Source of the DNA: an uncultured bacterium
GTDB taxonomy: Bacteria > Patescibacteriota > Minisyncoccia > Moranbacterales > GWC2-37-73
Assembly (NCBI GenBank): GCA_903851135.1
Contig: CAINNK010000014.1
Span: 1 to 37,573 of the forward strand
Length of the DNA: 37,573 bases
Reading direction: 5' to 3'
Shown: positions 7,629 through 31,996 of the stretch, in pieces
Layout: each line of letters begins with the position of its first letter
Numbering within the stretch: position 1 is the stretch's first letter
The notes under the pieces: model-generated
Told to the model about the DNA's origin: nothing
The model's input: only the letters and a program-made list of their open reading frames with translations
Databases searched by the model: none
Translations under genes and position numbers: made by a program

Positions 7629-7703
7629 ATATTTAAGTTCGTGAAGTTAGAAAATTATCAAGTCAAAAGTTCACCAAATTAGAACGCTAAAAATTCATAA
7701 AGT

Positions 7704-7733
7704 CATATCAAAAAATATACATTTTTTGATATG
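7704..7733. repeat. 13-bp inverted repeat (hairpin) upstream of secA
   Basis: CATATCAAAAAAT-ATAC-ATTTTTTGATATG, perfect arms. Confidence 0.7.
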
Positions 7734-7859
7734 AAAAATTTTAACCTGTTTATTTCTTTAGCATACAGCAAAAATGGGGCTTCGTCTAGCCCGATTCTTG
7801 CTTTTATTGAAATACGCAGTGGCGCAATTCATTTCATTTCAAAGCACCTCAATAATTTT

Positions 7860-10133: not shown

Positions 10134-10169
10134 AATTGAAAATAATTGCGACCGCAATAAATTTCAATT
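10134..10169 (+). repeat. 36-nt dyad repeat, copy A (type 1)
   Basis: AATTGAAAATAATTGCGACCGCAATAAATTTCAATT; identical to copy E. Confidence 0.9.
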
Positions 10170-10198
10170 CTGCTTTTGACCACTCAACTAAAATAGGG

Positions 10199-10234
10199 AA
10201 TTGAAATTTATTGCGATAGCTAAAAATTTCAATT
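10199..10234 (+). repeat. 36-nt dyad repeat, copy B (type 2)
   Basis: AATTGAAATTTATTGCGATAGCTAAAAATTTCAATT; contains the stop codon of the Cas2-fold gene. Confidence 0.9.
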
Positions 10235-10855
10235 ATTGTTTTTTAAATTGAAAAAGTTTTTCAGTTCCCTTTCCTTTTCAATTTCGCTAGCTATTATCAT
10301 CGTCATTTCTTCACCATTGAAGCCGAAAAAATTTCGAAGAATTTCAACTTCCTCCTGAAACTGATAGGGGCAGACCCAAACACTTTTTTGCAATTGATAC
10401 AGTCCCAATTCTTTGAGTTTTCCCCGAAGCATTTCACGCTTCGAACGATATCTTTCTTCAATATCAAAAATCAAGATCCGCCATTTTTTGTCCCAATGTT
10501 TTGGTTTTTTTATTTTCAATTCGTCAATTGAATATTTTTTAGCCAAAAGCTTCCCTTCATCACTCAAAGAAACATAGAGCTGCTTTCCTCGATATTCCAT
10601 TTTCAGTAAACCCTTTTTGCGAAGATAATAAAAAGAATTATAGAATCTATCCAACTCCTCACGCTTTCTTTTTCTTTTTTGCTCGAATTCAAAATCTTTA
10701 ATCAGGGCTGGAATTAACTTTCTGGCAAAAATCGGAGAAGTCGAAGCCACAGCAAACGCACCGCCCACCAAGATGCCTTTCAAAATTTTTTTGGAGATAT
10801 TTTTTGTATCAACACTCACAACTTTGTTTGTATTTTTATGCCTCAATTCTATCAC
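10229..10855 (-). CDS. PaaX-like winged-helix protein with Cas2-fold C-terminal domain
   Basis: 208 aa; N-terminal wHTH-like region, then KKWRILIFDIEERYRSKREMLRGKLKELGLYQLQKSVWVCPYQ, typical Cas2/PaaX ferredoxin-like core. ORF start codon is GTG. Confidence 0.75.
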   Translation of the reverse strand: MIELRHKNTNKVVSVDTKNISKKILKGILVGGAFAVASTSPIFARKLIPALIKDFEFEQKRKRKREELDRFYNSFYYLRKKGLLKMEYRGKQLYVSLSDEGKLLAKKYSIDELKIKKPKHWDKKWRILIFDIEERYRSKREMLRGKLKELGLYQLQKSVWVCPYQFQEEVEILRNFFGFNGEEMTMIIASEIEKERELKNFFNLKNNN

Positions 10856-10891
10856 AGTTGAAAAAAATTGCGATAGCTAGAAATTTAAATT
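10856..10891 (+). repeat. 36-nt dyad repeat, copy C (type 2)
   Basis: AGTTGAAAAAAATTGCGATAGCTAGAAATTTAAATT; directly abuts the ORF start. Confidence 0.85.
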
Positions 10892-10919
10892 CTTTGGGTT
10901 TGTGTTTCTTTCTTGAGGG

Positions 10920-10955
10920 AGTTGAAAGTTTTTGCGATAGCTAGAAATTTCAATT
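10920..10955 (+). repeat. 36-nt dyad repeat, copy D (type 2)
   Basis: AGTTGAAAGTTTTTGCGATAGCTAGAAATTTCAATT. Confidence 0.9.
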
Positions 10956-10994
10956 ATTTGCATCCTCTGCTTGTTGGTTATTAGTTTTTTGGAT

Positions 10995-11030
10995 AATTGA
11001 AAATAATTGCGACCGCAATAAATTTCAATT
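10995..11030 (+). repeat. 36-nt dyad repeat, copy E (type 1)
   Basis: AATTGAAAATAATTGCGACCGCAATAAATTTCAATT; identical to copy A. Confidence 0.9.
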
Positions 11031-11064
11031 ATTTTTCGAGGGATTTGAATGTGTCTGGTTATTT

Positions 11065-11223
11065 TCAATCGCTAATGATTATCTTTTTTCTTTCAACCTT
11101 AAAAACCATTTTTTGTCTTTATCTGATTCCCAATTCAGCGACGATTTCGGATGGTATAACAACAGCTAAACTTCTCTTCCCCACCCTTGTAACTTTTCTA
11201 ACCAATTCTTCTGATTTTTTCAT
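11065..11223 (-). pseudogene. AbrB/SpoVT-like DNA-binding protein interrupted by an in-frame TAA
   Basis: MKKSEELVRKVTRVGKRSLAVVIPSEIVAELGIR-TAA-RQKMVFKVERKKIIISD*; the post-stop residues resemble the normal end of this domain. Confidence 0.6.
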
Positions 11224-11286
11224 ATTTGTTTTTACCCCGTTAAAGTTAGTTGCACCTAACTTTTTAACTGAGGTTATTTTAATTTT

Positions 11287-11320
11287 TATTTTGTTACGTA
11301 GCATGCTACGTAACAAAATA
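11287..11320. promoter_or_regulatory. Perfect 34-bp palindrome, candidate operator
   Basis: TATTTTGTTACGTAGCATGCTACGTAACAAAATA, upstream of the AbrB-like gene. Confidence 0.6.
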
Positions 11321-11414
11321 TACAAAAAACTTTACTGCGTAGCATATTAATCCTTTATTAAAGGATAACTAATAATTAAAAGCATCTTGTCACAATTCGA
11401 ACAAGAAACATCCA

Positions 11415-11990
11415 TCAACTCATCATATGCACCCTGCCTGACAAATATGAAAGTTCCTGTGCCAAAGGACTTTCTGGCCAAGCTTCGAGCAAAACTGTGT
11501 TGGTCTCAAGTATGTTTTTGATTTTTTTATCTTTGGAAGCATTAAAGCGTTGAAAAATTTGGTCGCCTTCTTTGTTGTGATCATCAACCATCTCGGTCAA
11601 ATTACTAACAATATCAGCAGATTTCACCAAAATAGCTTCGTGTGAAAAAGTTTTGATATGCTCCAAGGCTTGTTTTTTTCGCTCATTCCAAGATAAACTC
11701 TTGTCGGTTTCAGTCACAGCCAAAACCAACTCAGCAACCTTTTCACCAAAACGATCAGTCAGCATTTCCACTGTCACTTTCTTTTCCTCGATACTATCCT
11801 CAATAGTGTCGTGCAAAATTCCAGCACAAACCACATCTTCATCAGCTCCAATACTGGAAAGCAAGATTCCCACTGTCAGAGGATGCGTGATATATGAGAC
11901 ATCTTTACCCTTACGTTTTTGCTTTTGATAAATTTCATGCGTTTTGGTGGCAAATCTAATCGCCCGCTGAATTTTTGATAAGTTCTGTAT
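11415..11990 (-). CDS. HD-domain phosphohydrolase, paralogue of 7860..8438; no ATG at the homologous start
   Basis: Homology continues upstream of the annotated GTG start: (ATA)QNLSKIQRAIRFATKTHEIYQKQKRKGKDVSYITHPLTVGILLSSIG; possibly start-defective. Confidence 0.65.
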   Translation of the reverse strand: MQNLSKIQRAIRFATKTHEIYQKQKRKGKDVSYITHPLTVGILLSSIGADEDVVCAGILHDTIEDSIEEKKVTVEMLTDRFGEKVAELVLAVTETDKSLSWNERKKQALEHIKTFSHEAILVKSADIVSNLTEMVDDHNKEGDQIFQRFNASKDKKIKNILETNTVLLEAWPESPLAQELSYLSGRVHMMS

Positions 11991-11994
11991 ATGA

Positions 11995-12741
11995 TTAGTT
12001 ATTTAATAATTTTTTTATCTTATTTTGAATTTCAACAGTACATTCAGGATCCATATCTAAATTATTAAGATAATTTTCTAAAACATTTTTATCTTTTATA
12101 ATATAAACTCCCACATCACCTTTCCATGTCACCAAACCATTGGAATAAACTAGCGCTTTTTGTATGGCAATATGGCCAACCCCATGAGAAGAAAAGTATT
12201 CTCTCAGAACAGATACTCTCTTATTTAAAATATTTCTTGAATCTTTATTAAGAAAAATTTGCCTTCCGTCTTTCTTTATATAACATTGATCATTTTCAAA
12301 ATAAACTTGCTCGGACAGATTTTTAACCTCCAAAACAATTATCCCCTTGTCTCCAATTATCACAGCATCGAAATCAAAAATATGAAATGGCAGTTTAACG
12401 TTTTTCAAAAAATTGTTTTTTCCAACTATATCCTCCAGCCAAGAATTCACCAAATCTTCACCTTCAAAACCTCTTTTTGAATTTTTCGCTTCCTTAATCA
12501 AATTATCAATTCTGGGCGAACTTAATGCAAAAAGCCAGTCAACCAATTTTTCATTCAATGGATAATATAGGAAACCCAAAAGAAATGAACCAATCACACT
12601 ATATTCAAATATATTCTGCAAAGAATAATATGCCGAAATTGATAAAGTGGCAAAAAATATAACACCTGTAATAACTAGCAAGAATATAGCTTTAAAAAAT
12701 TTCTTTTTTGGAAATGACATGCATGTGAAAAAATTAAACAA
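11995..12741 (-). CDS. Membrane-anchored NERD-domain protein
   Basis: N-terminal hydrophobic helices; FEGEDLVNSWLEDIVG...FDFDAVIIGDKGIIVLEVKNLS. Confidence 0.8.
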   Translation of the reverse strand: MFNFFTCMSFPKKKFFKAIFLLVITGVIFFATLSISAYYSLQNIFEYSVIGSFLLGFLYYPLNEKLVDWLFALSSPRIDNLIKEAKNSKRGFEGEDLVNSWLEDIVGKNNFLKNVKLPFHIFDFDAVIIGDKGIIVLEVKNLSEQVYFENDQCYIKKDGRQIFLNKDSRNILNKRVSVLREYFSSHGVGHIAIQKALVYSNGLVTWKGDVGVYIIKDKNVLENYLNNLDMDPECTVEIQNKIKKLLNN

Positions 12742-12795
12742 TTATTTCCCTTTAAGTGATTGTCCCACGGGAAACTCTTTTTTATTAATATGGCT

Positions 12796-12951
12796 TTACT
12801 TCTGAAAAATGAAAAGATGCTCGTGCATAATTAGGAGGAAGTTACTTTCTTGAGAACGTTTAACCCAAAAGCCAGTGGCTTTACAGTTGTGTTGTCTTTT
12901 AATAATGTCTTCTTTTAAGACAAAGCCTTGTCCAGCTAGACTAAGCGATTT
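12796..12951 (-). pseudogene. C-terminal remnant of a DNA methyltransferase
   Basis: Stop-free frame KSLSLAGQGFVLKEDIIKRQHNCKATGFWVKRSQESNFLLIMHEHLFIFQK* resembles the C-terminus of a family of site-specific DNA methylases; no catalytic motifs remain. Confidence 0.45.
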
Positions 12952-13070
12952 CTTTTTTTAATCAATTCAAGTTCTTTTTCAATATTTTCCATAATACATT
13001 ATTTTGAAAAAAATTTAATTTTACGATATCACAATATGCTTGAAATATTTTAACGGAAATTCATAATAAC

Positions 13071-13868
13071 TCAAACTTCATTTAAATTTATTTGAGCCAT
13101 AGATTCAACAACATCAATTATTTTTTTAATATCCTCAACTGGCAGTCTACCATCGCTTGCAATATGCTCTGCCAGCGTTTTAACAAGTGATTTCTCATCA
13201 CAAACAAAAACGCCAGCAATATCACGAGGTTCAAACTCAAGAACATTTTTTCTTCCAACAAAAACAAGAATCGGATGGATGAAAAATTTCTTCTTAATTA
13301 CTTTTTCAATACATTCATGTACAAACATGGTTCTCTTTTTTAAATCATTAATAATTGACTTGTTCTGAAAATCCTTTTCTCCAATAAGTAAATATTTTCC
13401 ATTAGTTTTAATTGGATAACTATAATTTTTCACTTCAATAGTAAAAATCGAGCCCTGTCCAACAACAATAAAATCGATATCTCCGTTTTTTGGAATTTCT
13501 ATATGCTGAAAAACTGAAAAATCTTTCTTTGGAATATTTTCAAGTTCTTTTTGAATCCTCAACTCCCCAATAATTCCTTTAAGATATTTATCAGAATTCT
13601 GATCATGTATGCGATATGGCAGATAAAATTTTTCAGTCGCAAGGAATAATATTCCAAAAGCAAGAAGACCAAGAGAAAAAGAAAGCAACCAAAAATAATC
13701 AATTTTAGATATACTGATAGAAATAAAAAACATCATAAATGCTAAAGTAGACGTGCCAAGATAAGAAACGAGGTATCTGTTTGATTTTCTAAAATGAAAA
13801 GATTCTTGATCGTTGAGATACTGACTTGATTTTCTAAATTTGAAATTAAACATAAATTTCTTAATCAC
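13071..13868 (-). CDS. Membrane-anchored NERD-domain protein (second copy)
   Basis: Two N-terminal TM helices; GIIGELRIQKELENI...NGDIDFIVVGQGSIFTIEVKNYS. Confidence 0.8.
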   Translation of the reverse strand: MIKKFMFNFKFRKSSQYLNDQESFHFRKSNRYLVSYLGTSTLAFMMFFISISISKIDYFWLLSFSLGLLAFGILFLATEKFYLPYRIHDQNSDKYLKGIIGELRIQKELENIPKKDFSVFQHIEIPKNGDIDFIVVGQGSIFTIEVKNYSYPIKTNGKYLLIGEKDFQNKSIINDLKKRTMFVHECIEKVIKKKFFIHPILVFVGRKNVLEFEPRDIAGVFVCDEKSLVKTLAEHIASDGRLPVEDIKKIIDVVESMAQINLNEV

Positions 13869-13878
13869 TATTTGATGG

Positions 13879-15705
13879 TTAATTCATAATCAATTTAATT
13901 TTGTCAAAAATCAGTTTGAAATTATTAAAATCAAAATTCCCTGCAAATTCATCATTTAATTCAACTAACTCTGCAAATTTTGCCTTCGAGTGAATCCAAC
14001 TTAAATCTCCGATATTTTCATCCCAAATCTTTTTTTCAAAATTATCTTCAGGATTCTCAATTCTTGACGTAGGTTTTCGCCTGCTATCAAAATTAATTTC
14101 ATTATCGAAATACATGCACTTACTATCACAAATATTTTTTAAATTAATATCACTATAATAAAATTCTATTGAAATATTCTTATAATTTTCACGACTGCTT
14201 GGCTTTGGAATACAGAAAGCATAGACATTATTACCATAATCTTTAAATTGTTGACCGCCCTTTTCTATATCTTCAACAATCTTCACCTCATCTCTATCAA
14301 AAATACCAACGATTTTACGTGATTGAGGAAATGTTGCAATTTTTTTCAACAAATCCTTCAACTCCGAAGATCCCCAGCCACTTGTGGGAAATTTAAAAGA
14401 AAAATCGATATCACAACCAATAATATTTAATTTTTCTTTTGCTTTTTTTAAATGTTTAATATCGGTGAACCCCTCAGTAATAATGAAGGGCTTTGTCGAT
14501 TCACTTAGCTTTTGTTTAAATTTCTCAAATTCATCGATTTTTAATATTAAATCTTTAATGCGTTCAGATTGTTTCGCAATCTTTTCATAAAATTCCTTAT
14601 TCGCAATCCTTAATTCTGCATAATTTTCTTTTCCTACCGACAAGATTCTTGAATCACTCTTAATCTTACTAAAAACCTCATAAAAGCGAGCACACTCTGG
14701 TGCCAAAGAAATAGTAACTGGTGAATGTGTCGCTATTACAACTAGAATCCCTTTTGATACAAAATATTTCTCAATGAGCTTGAAAAATGCTTCAGTTAAT
14801 GATGGATTAAATGTCGCGTCGAATTCATCCAGCAGTAATATTTTTTTGAATTCAAAATCAGTCCCATGAAAAGAGGCAAAAATTAGAGTGATAATCGCCT
14901 TTTCTCCATCAGAAAGATCCAAAAGACTCCTGCTGTCATCTAAATCAATATCGCCATTTTCTTTTAACTGATACAATTTAGGAATTTCATTTAATTGAAA
15001 ATCATCATCTTTAAGAAAATAATCGTTTATTCCCGACTTAAATCTATATTCCAGTTTAAGTTCAGAAAACAATTCATTTAGCTCAATCCACGGCGCAAGG
15101 CCAAGAGAATTTTGATCAAATTTTGCACCACTTTCCCCGCATTTTTTTATGCTATTATGAACGTTTTTTGCATACTTAAAAAATTCATCACCTATAAAAT
15201 TTGAAAAGATATCATCGGGCTGCCAAATAAAATCTCCGAAATCAGTATTATTAACATCTTCTTGCAATATCTGTCCATTTGAAAATTTTACTTCTCCAAA
15301 TTTTTCAATAAGGATATACCTAGATCTTTCACACGCTCCTTGAAACTGTTCCAAATTTTTCTGATTTGAATCTAGCTGGCACTGACGATAATTTTCCCAA
15401 ACTTGATTTTTTGTATTAATCGGGCCACTAATACCTTGTGTATACATATCTGCAATGCCAAAATTATCTTTAAACGATCTGAATATTACATCCCTATTTT
15501 TTAATTTAGTACCATCTAAAATAATATCTGCAACAATAGCCTTACTCTGATCATTTGGAAATTGCTGTCGAATTATGTCCATTAGTTGAGATTTCCCGCT
15601 TCCATTAACACCAGAAAGGATTATTAAATCACCATTAAGGTTAACCTCAAACCCAGAATTAAAGGAGCGATATTCCTGATTTACATGTATGTCTAGTTTT
15701 TTCAT
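13879..15705 (-). CDS. OLD-like protein: AAA ATPase fused to TOPRIM domain
   Basis: LSGVNGSGKSQLMD Walker A; LLDLSDGEKAIITLIFA signature; KILLLDEFDATFNPSL Walker B; TOPRIM FIITEGFTDIKHL...IVGIFDRDE. Confidence 0.85.
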   Translation of the reverse strand: MKKLDIHVNQEYRSFNSGFEVNLNGDLIILSGVNGSGKSQLMDIIRQQFPNDQSKAIVADIILDGTKLKNRDVIFRSFKDNFGIADMYTQGISGPINTKNQVWENYRQCQLDSNQKNLEQFQGACERSRYILIEKFGEVKFSNGQILQEDVNNTDFGDFIWQPDDIFSNFIGDEFFKYAKNVHNSIKKCGESGAKFDQNSLGLAPWIELNELFSELKLEYRFKSGINDYFLKDDDFQLNEIPKLYQLKENGDIDLDDSRSLLDLSDGEKAIITLIFASFHGTDFEFKKILLLDEFDATFNPSLTEAFFKLIEKYFVSKGILVVIATHSPVTISLAPECARFYEVFSKIKSDSRILSVGKENYAELRIANKEFYEKIAKQSERIKDLILKIDEFEKFKQKLSESTKPFIITEGFTDIKHLKKAKEKLNIIGCDIDFSFKFPTSGWGSSELKDLLKKIATFPQSRKIVGIFDRDEVKIVEDIEKGGQQFKDYGNNVYAFCIPKPSSRENYKNISIEFYYSDINLKNICDSKCMYFDNEINFDSRRKPTSRIENPEDNFEKKIWDENIGDLSWIHSKAKFAELVELNDEFAGNFDFNNFKLIFDKIKLIMN

Positions 15706-15730
15706 ATGTTTTTCTATGACGTTTCTTAAT

Positions 15731-15961
15731 TTACCAACTCATTAACTTTTCAATTACAACATGTTTAATTTTCTTATCACATTCCAAACAAAAGAACCTT
15801 TTTGATTCAACGCTATCTGATCCATGGAATTCTTTATAATCGCCATCTTCAATATCCAACGAATAATAATGCATTTCTTTTTGTGCAACACCAACTTTTT
15901 CATTAACACATTTACAATGTGGACACACATATTCTTTTATTGTTTCTTCGGTATTTTTCAT
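15731..15961 (-). CDS. Small zinc-ribbon protein, uncharacterised
   Basis: 76 aa; CPHC...CLEC pair. Confidence 0.6.
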   Translation of the reverse strand: MKNTEETIKEYVCPHCKCVNEKVGVAQKEMHYYSLDIEDGDYKEFHGSDSVESKRFFCLECDKKIKHVVIEKLMSW

Positions 15962-15975
15962 ATTATTCTAAAATA

Positions 15976-16401
15976 CTAAATTTTATATTTCAAAGAATAT
16001 TCCTTAATCAAATCAAGGCAATCTTCATATGCATCAGCCTTACCTCCAATGAACTCATTGAGTCCAAATTCTTCGATATCCTCACTTTCCCATAGCTCCT
16101 CCTTCCATTCTTTGCGATAATCTTTAGCTAATTTTGAAATATATTTCTCCAGAGATTTACCTGTAATTTTTTCTATAAATCCCTTGGCCATCAAGTCCAC
16201 TGTTTCTTTATGTAAATTTTGAAGATTTTCTCTCAACTCAAAACTTTTCAATTTCTTATCAGTTGAAATAACTTTCCAGTCTTTTAGCTCAGTTTCAAAA
16301 TTTTTATATTCCCTGCAAATGACCGAAAATGGAAAATAGAAATCTTTATTTTTATTAAGATATTTTAAAATTTTAATTGCAAGTTTTCTACTTATTTTCA
16401 T
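15976..16401 (-). CDS. Uncharacterised protein
   Basis: 141 aa ORF between the zinc-ribbon gene and the DpnI-like gene. Confidence 0.6.
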   Translation of the reverse strand: MKISRKLAIKILKYLNKNKDFYFPFSVICREYKNFETELKDWKVISTDKKLKSFELRENLQNLHKETVDLMAKGFIEKITGKSLEKYISKLAKDYRKEWKEELWESEDIEEFGLNEFIGGKADAYEDCLDLIKEYSLKYKI

Positions 16402-16465
16402 AAATTAATCAAGAATTTAATTTTTATTCCTGATCAATTTTTGATCAAATCCAAATTATTGTCAA

Positions 16466-17233
16466 CTACATAATTTTATACTTTCCTGGCTCAATAAATT
16501 CAATATATTTTTTATCTCTCAAAAACTGCAACTGCTGTCTTATTTTTGGTCTTATATTCTTATTTTCTGGATGAATCAATTGAAGCTCTTTTTCGAAAGC
16601 ATACATTTCCTGCAAAGAGAATTCCTTCTTATCCATTATATCAATGCAATTCATAATATCTAAAATCCAACCCTTGAGTTCTGGTTTTTTCATCTCTTTC
16701 AAAAAAGCAGTTTTTTGCCACTTTTCCAGAACCTCCCTTTTTAAAATTTCTTTATTATCTTCAATGTAAAAAATTTTCCCAGAATTCGGGATTTTTGAAA
16801 ATAGAATATATGAGCCAACCCAACCAGCCCTTTTGGCTGTTTCAGCCAAAGCTTTTCTTTTTTCAATGATTTCTGGAACAAAAAAATGCTTAGGTACAAC
16901 AAAAAAATTATGAACGGAATAATTATCAAGTAGATAGTGAAGAAAAAAGAAATTTGGCTTATTTTCAGATGACAGTCTTGTAATTATAGTCTTATATTCT
17001 GAGGAAATAACTTTTCCTTTAAACTCTTTTTGACTGGCTTTTTGTTCATAATTTTCTGAACATTTTTCACACAAAAAATCTGAGACTTTTTTATTGTTCT
17101 CTAAATTTTTTATATTATTACCACAGTTTGGACAAAAAATATTTTTCTCACTCCAAAATTCAGAAATAACTCTAATTTTTTGAGAATTATTTTTATAATT
17201 TATTGCCAATTTTTGATCCAAAAATAATTCCAT
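16466..17233 (-). CDS. dpnI: DpnI-family restriction endonuclease (cleaves methylated GATC)
   Basis: MELFLDQKLAINYKNNSQKIRVISEFW...CPNCGN...SDFLCEKCSENYEQKASQ...NPNFFFL...LAETAKRAGWVGSYILFSKIP...GKIF...GWILDIMNCID...IRPKIRQQLQFLRDKKYIEFIEPGKYK; matches recalled DpnI across its length, with D...ExK and the four Cys retained. Confidence 0.92.
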   Translation of the reverse strand: MELFLDQKLAINYKNNSQKIRVISEFWSEKNIFCPNCGNNIKNLENNKKVSDFLCEKCSENYEQKASQKEFKGKVISSEYKTIITRLSSENKPNFFFLHYLLDNYSVHNFFVVPKHFFVPEIIEKRKALAETAKRAGWVGSYILFSKIPNSGKIFYIEDNKEILKREVLEKWQKTAFLKEMKKPELKGWILDIMNCIDIMDKKEFSLQEMYAFEKELQLIHPENKNIRPKIRQQLQFLRDKKYIEFIEPGKYKIM

Positions 17234-17243
17234 AAAACCGTTT

Positions 17244-17263
17244 TTACGTAACCTGCTACGTAA
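17244..17263. promoter_or_regulatory. Dyad TTACGTA-N6-TACGTAA upstream of the DpnI gene
   Basis: TTACGTAACCTGCTACGTAA, about 10 bp upstream of the ATG; similar to the palindrome at 11287..11320. Confidence 0.6.
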
Positions 17264-17368
17264 CAAAGATAATTAACCCACATCCCCATCCTACTCCCAT
17301 TTTTGCTGTTTGGAAAGGGAGGAAGTTGTAAAGTTTATAACGTTACAAAATAAAAAGGCAAGGCCTGG

Positions 17369-31950: not shown

Positions 31951-31996
31951 CTTCTCAGAGGCTAAGCCTCCCCTTGGAGGCTTAGCCTCTGAGAAG
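31951..31996. repeat. Perfect 21-bp inverted repeat with 4-nt loop
   Basis: CTTCTCAGAGGCTAAGCCTCC-CCTT-GGAGGCTTAGCCTCTGAGAAG. Confidence 0.95.

Follow-up and report, generated by a model that had tools for sequence, protein, structure and literature searches.

What does a gene for a PaaX-like protein with a Cas2-like fold do between five copies of a palindrome, and are these copies operators, a CRISPR-like array or parts of a mobile unit? The gene lies in a window of 37,573 nucleotides, the whole stretch of DNA analysed here, from a Moranbacteria-type patescibacterial genome of 1.28 Mb, to which Ca. Moranbacteria are closest in the named genome collection. Five 36-nt units in one common orientation, with spacers of 29, 28 and 39 nt, surround it: palindromes A (10134..10169; type 1, centre GCGA|CCGC, the outer copy) and B (10199..10234; type 2, centre GCGA|TAGC) downstream, and palindromes C (10856..10891; type 2), D (10920..10955; type 2) and E (10995..11030; type 1, outermost) upstream. 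A and E are identical at 36/36 positions. The initial annotation had already described these places, order, orientation and spacers, the identity of A and E and the second type formed by B, C and D, all of which we confirm; its view of every unit as a near-palindrome holds for A, B and E (15/18 dyad pairs each) and for D (13/18), but C is degenerate and must be considered weak because it retains 10/18 pairs. This arrangement of five dyads is not due to chance. A scan for C/G-core palindromes found four of the A–E sites and one unrelated palindrome (two overlapping matches near 31958-31973) in the window, versus 0–2 sites (mean 0.3) in shuffled windows at the same threshold. The 36-mers, which the initial annotation had suggested searching for, occur in their own genome at this locus and as one solo copy on another contig, and nowhere else. 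A clean empty site for the locus was looked for in relatives and was not found. In one relative (G001), the corresponding hotspot holds genes resembling a restriction-modification system, on the same side of the PIF1-like gene. The window itself contains a variable island at 10800-17300, with an HD-domain protein, two NERD-domain proteins, an AAA ATPase and a DpnI-like restriction enzyme, and about 130 nt of it (12796-12931) recur with 88–90% DNA identity in different surroundings in two other genomes (G003:C40 and G005:C5).

The gene occupies positions 10229..10855 of the minus strand and encodes 208 amino acids if read from GTG 10855, or 196 if read from GTG 10819. It had been proposed to be framed exactly by the palindromes; its TGA stop does lie inside B, and the earliest GTG that could serve as a start is adjacent to C, but the true start may instead be the in-frame GTG at 10819, since residues 1–15 have very low confidence in the predicted structure (a model of medium quality, pLDDT 75, pTM 0.60). 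Given the ambiguous start, the model confidence and the enrichment of -10-like hexamers across the family, the segment 10801..10855 (minus strand) by palindrome C is probably a 5′ leader or promoter region. The protein combines a winged helix with a Cas2-like fold: it matches Pfam PaaX_M (PF20803) above the cut-off (E = 1.3e-19) and Cas2 weakly, NCBIfam gives PaaX at 5.5e-10 and cas2 at 1.8e-4, and foldseek with the predicted structure retrieves E. coli PaaX (8a39, E = 5.6e-7) as the best match, followed by Cas2. The full-length PaaX equivalog TIGR02277 failed, with 39 bits for a cut-off of 264 and coverage of positions 41–138 of 279 only. The Cas2 aspartate that follows strand 1 (D131) is kept, and it is invariant in 24 aligned family members, among whose invariant columns no conserved His/Tyr was seen; a Pfam scan gave no match of the window protein to the HUH domain Y1_Tnp (PF01797). 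By its sequence, the window protein is not a RAYT. PADLOC returned weak Cas2 matches only. A phage origin was ruled out, as PHROG and phage records gave no match and a single viral contig among viral sequences carries a relative. Botulinum neurotoxin entries in a PDB sequence search were weak (E ≥ 0.016), involved a lysine-rich helix and were taken as chance.

The combination of gene and palindromes is far from restricted to the window. Homologues occur in 15 of the 19 genomes of the same family, with up to seven divergent copies per genome, and about 37 of the 43 genes concerned have a near-palindrome of 30–50 nt repeated upstream and downstream, whose sequence differs from one gene lineage to another. 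A search of named genomes returned 520 relatives and, among the 80 listed, nearly all were titled Patescibacteria or unclassified candidate phylum; PaaX_M matches were present in 67 of 193 sampled Patescibacteria genomes, with up to 11 copies. Palindromes matching on both flanks (score of 18 or more) accompany 66 of 81 homologues from the named Patescibacteria set versus 1 of 130 control genes, i.e., other genes of the same loci; together with the counts in the family, this makes the arrangement a general one. Among close relatives, we found neither repeats unlinked to the gene nor orthologues devoid of repeats, the two outcomes that the initial annotation had named as contrary to it. In a held-out sample of 38 further genes drawn phylum-wide, for which predictions were recorded before the sequences were obtained, matching flanking repeats were found in 20; several of the others are divergent genes whose product no longer has the aspartate. 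Such a loss is seen in some deep relatives (L253, L244, L272, L261 and L262), where the aspartate is replaced (FSLPE, FEIPE, FNIPE, YEIPE) and matching flanking palindromes are missing; these may form a separate, purely regulatory branch. Most loci have one or two palindromes per side, and about three quarters of loci have a palindrome past the stop codon. The median distance is 48 nt from the upstream palindrome to the start codon and 40 nt from the stop to the downstream one. Where the palindrome centre is asymmetric, the flanking copies are direct in 14 cases and inverted in 6. One syntenic locus (L148 compared with L153) has gene and palindrome 91% identical and flanks about 71% identical, the downstream palindrome being absent from L153; this contrast suggests a local replacement.

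The palindromes are almost certainly, as their covariation with the protein indicates, its own binding sites. Upstream and downstream palindromes have a similarity of 0.86 within a locus versus 0.43 between loci, and the more alike two proteins are, the more alike are their palindromes (Mantel r 0.37, permuted maximum 0.08). When every site position is compared with every alignment column, base -2 of the palindrome is coupled most strongly to residue 134 (Z = 9.6; next 5.1), which lies three residues after the Cas2 aspartate and is E in the window protein. An acidic residue (D/E) pairs with G or T at -2 (47 loci) and a non-acidic one with A or C (32 loci), which yields a 47/2/0/32 table for the 81 loci with confident palindromes (Fisher 1.5e-20). 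Of the two exceptions, L055 is genuine, while L041 is an exception because its dyad was misassigned by the automatic calling, which was wrong or unclear there and at L034, L035 and L085 (terminators or other dyads were picked). The residue class switches nine times along the protein tree, each time on a branch that also sees a switch of base class, versus a random mean of 0.6. The held-out loci followed the rule in 16 of 17 automatic tests, with L276 as the exception, and five more judged by eye were consistent with it, one of them having a non-acidic residue matching A; only half of the rule was thereby retested, because this sample contained almost no A/C centres. The next couplings also involve the Cas2 fold (base -1 with residue 134; base -4 with residues 141 and 137), and weaker ones involve the winged helix (-14 with residue 77 and -17 with residue 76, in a predicted helix spanning 61–80). 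Such covariation would place the Cas2 fold on the centre of the palindrome and, less firmly, assign its outer arms to the winged helix. As of a 2022 review, no structure of a PaaX–operator complex had been solved (PMC9493321), and we found no published link of PaaX or Cas2-fold proteins to flanking palindromes in the open-access literature searched. A large and unexplained protein family, PaaX_M, is now tied to cognate DNA sites, and the pairing of residue 134 in the Cas2 fold with base -2 of the palindrome can be offered as a specific and testable code of recognition.

The palindromes are AT-rich, 32–38 bp long and symmetric through a centre whose consensus, taken from 182 of them, is RCNN|NNGY; C at -3 was imposed by the palindrome search, and an unconstrained dyad search gave the same centres (GCATATGC, GCTATAGC, GCGGTCGC, GCCATGGC, GCAATTGC and others). 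Complementarity is high in the core (0.70–1.00) and in the arms from -11 to -17 (0.89–0.97), with a dip between them (0.64–0.73). Judged from these profiles, this two-zone pattern is the imprint expected of a dimer with two contact zones, unlike the constraint expected from a hairpin. TATAAT-like hexamers are enriched 16–39 nt downstream of upstream palindromes (102 versus 50 for downstream palindromes), which suggests that the upstream palindrome overlaps the promoter; autoregulation through the upstream copies is likely.

The palindromes also occur away from the genes. Solo copies number about 3–10 per genome in the two palindrome families examined. Pattern searches of the six genomes of the genus detected one palindrome family at 4–15 sites per genome, including those linked to elements, in all but the host genome of the window, which has a single weak site; four of the other five have the cognate gene, and none was detected in G001. 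A reversed control pattern gave 0 sites in the same six genomes. The GTCGGCCGAC family is confined to the two genomes that have that exact gene type, with the gene's own pair in both and three solo copies in one of them. Most solo palindromes are found at the 3′ ends of genes, many of them where two genes converge and few where two diverge, and what their contexts have in common is mainly the palindrome of about 37–45 nt itself. One of them is missing in a relative, where the orthologous spacer has itself diverged. A whole unit has been duplicated in one genome (G017), where two copies lie in unrelated flanks and share 97% identity over a segment that starts about 13 nt ahead of the upstream palindrome and runs to the downstream one; the second copy carries a stop codon. 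In another genome (G013), the flanks of this second site adjoin without the gene, and solo palindromes from two further lineages are present in the spacer. Movement seems rare, because the two members of a close pair of elements are mostly found in syntenic places, and neither a precise target-site duplication nor a transposition intermediate was seen. Regarding the mobile cassette initially envisaged, the clear duplicated unit and the dispersed solo palindromes speak for it, but most copies are inherited in place. Other dispersed palindromes exist in these genomes. A GC-rich one, AGAGGCTAAGCCTCCCCTTGGAGGCTTAGCCTCT (window 31956-31990), is repeated on another contig (L011, about 2432) and is probably the REP of a Y1_Tnp gene. 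Another, AACATTCTCACATTCTCAAGAATGTGAGAATGTT, is found at about seven places in the host genome (L011 about 3579; L199; G000 C1, C4, C6, C13 and C14) and at many in G003. Near-identical doublets of two palindrome families (1590-1690 and 7651-7760) delimit a 6-kb stretch at L210 (G005:C57:18200-27400), and the syntenic place in G003 (L197) has one palindrome and lacks the stretch.

We consider it fairly probable that the protein binds its own palindromes and that the unit and its solo copies spread in a REP/RAYT-like manner, with a Cas2-fold protein replacing the HUH transposase. The PaaX-like protein would bind the long palindromes as double-stranded DNA and as a dimer, a geometry that we infer from the sites. 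The outer arms (about -11 to -17) would be recognised by the winged helices, and the two Cas2 folds would come together at the two-fold axis, where they would read the central RCNN|NNGY. Site copies bracket the gene, those at the promoter probably mediating autorepression, and both the bracketed unit and lone palindromes would occasionally spread, mostly to gene 3′ ends. With this occasional spread, each gene lineage and its palindrome form a cognate pair, and the whole would work like a REP/RAYT system. The protein itself might promote the spread, perhaps through a catalytic use of the near-invariant Cas2 aspartate. That these are palindromic selfish elements, widespread in Patescibacteria, which a Cas2-fold protein instead of an HUH transposase both recognises and propagates is an idea that we advance tentatively. 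If the protein does drive the spread, REP-like systems would have arisen more than once, in a second and independent origin. A Cas2 relative acting on palindromes without Cas1 would bear on the origin of CRISPR adaptation proteins, and the reading of palindrome centres could be a possible non-CRISPR ancestral role of Cas2-type proteins.

The main rival is an ordinary autoregulated transcription factor of the PaaX type, for which the palindromes would be operators and the solo copies a small regulon, with no mobility caused by the protein. This is a serious explanation, and we regard it as rather unlikely. E. coli PaaX, a homologue, has a dyad operator, TGATTC(N27)GAATCA, and represses its own promoter (PMC9493321); the promoter-like hexamers beside the upstream sites, the two-zone dimer footprint and the mostly vertical inheritance also fit a plain regulator. 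The multi-site autoregulatory operator proposed at the outset gains from the same hexamers and from the covariation of palindrome and protein at base resolution. Nevertheless, it leaves unexplained the palindromes past the stop codon, which a plain regulator would have to use for looping or for neighbouring genes, and the solo copies between convergent genes and at gene 3′ ends. Against it, too, four PaaX genes examined on actinobacterial plasmids have no such palindromes, and the unit of G017 was duplicated from palindrome to palindrome.

RNA-level action, with the palindromes as transcript hairpins of a type III toxin–antitoxin-like system or of a Cas2/VapD-like RNase that regulates itself, seems very improbable. 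RNases do exist among Cas2-like proteins, and a gene with repeats of about 36 nt on either side would suit such a system. However, G-T and A-C mismatches outside the centre are equally common (87 versus 82), so that there is no sign of selection for an RNA hairpin, and complementarity extends to the innermost pairs (0.70, 0.90), where a hairpin loop would not require it; the RNA hairpin or type III toxin–antitoxin was ruled out by this mismatch comparison and the symmetric centre. Moreover, the centre base covaries with the protein, and no Rfam family reached its gathering score, sub-threshold matches of microRNA type being the only ones. We give as little credit to the palindromes being REPs moved in trans by the Y1_Tnp (RAYT) enzymes of the genome, with the Cas2-fold protein merely binding them. 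Y1_Tnp genes are present in all six genomes of the genus and could act in this way, but the one on contig C45 of the host genome (L240, G000:C45:50500-54200) lies between perfect palindromes of a different kind, AGGGACTAAGTCCCCAATTGGGGACTTAGTCCCT, with a third copy nearby (217, 1695, 2220), and is a canonical RAYT/REP unit; in addition, the restriction of GTCGGCCGAC palindromes to the genomes with their exact gene type argues against mobilisation by another enzyme.

The host genome does possess a complete-looking type V-A CRISPR-Cas locus on another contig (L241, G000:C39:12000-19529), with its own repeat, GTCTAATACCTATATAAGATTTCTACTTTTGTAGAT, unrelated to the dyads, and a gene for a 1335-residue protein that we take by eye to be Cas12a-like, followed by Cas4-like (named in the same way), Cas1-like and Cas2-like genes; no cas1 or effector gene lies next to the repeats, as the initial annotation had remarked for the window as a whole. 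A CRISPR-like or proto-CRISPR array around a stand-alone Cas2, as suggested by the Cas2 fold and by 36-nt repeats in one orientation with spacers of 28–39 nt, is hardly credible, as the spacers, far from varying between relatives, are conserved in the sister species (G003) and duplicated within its locus, no exact viral match was found for two of those in the window, in most loci neither side bears more than one or two palindromes, and the true Cas12a locus uses an unrelated 36-nt repeat.

Compared with stand-alone Cas2 proteins and CRISPR adaptation modules, the window protein shares the Cas2 fold and the aspartate after strand 1, but its gene has no Cas1 beside it and no leader or varying spacers, and the protein has an extra winged helix and a putative sequence-specific reading of palindrome centres. 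With PaaX regulators (E. coli PaaX, PDB 8a39; Jannaschia, 3l09), it shares the domain order, a winged helix and then a Cas2-like middle domain, a dyad operator with widely spaced half-sites, and probable autorepression. Unlike them, it lacks the C-terminal region (208 amino acids, covering positions 41–138 of the 279-position model) and keeps the Cas2 aspartate, and its palindromes lie on both sides of the gene and are dispersed, with no linkage to phenylacetate genes. The closest parallel is offered by the REP/RAYT (TnpA_REP) “REPtrons” (PMC2817692, PMC8266576), in which RAYT genes are flanked by their own REPs and usually stay put, and REPs change yet remain palindromic (PMC2817692). The window-type system differs from them in its protein (winged helix plus Cas2 fold, without Y1_Tnp domain or conserved His/Tyr), in its AT-rich palindromes of 32–38 bp, symmetric through RCNN|NNGY and probably bound as duplex, in the number of copies (about 3–15 versus tens to hundreds of REPs) and in flanking copies that are often direct and do not keep to an inverted orientation. 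It resembles them in having a gene between its own palindromes, several divergent pairs per genome, palindromes that change but stay palindromic, solo copies dispersed at gene ends, and orthologues that mostly remain in place.
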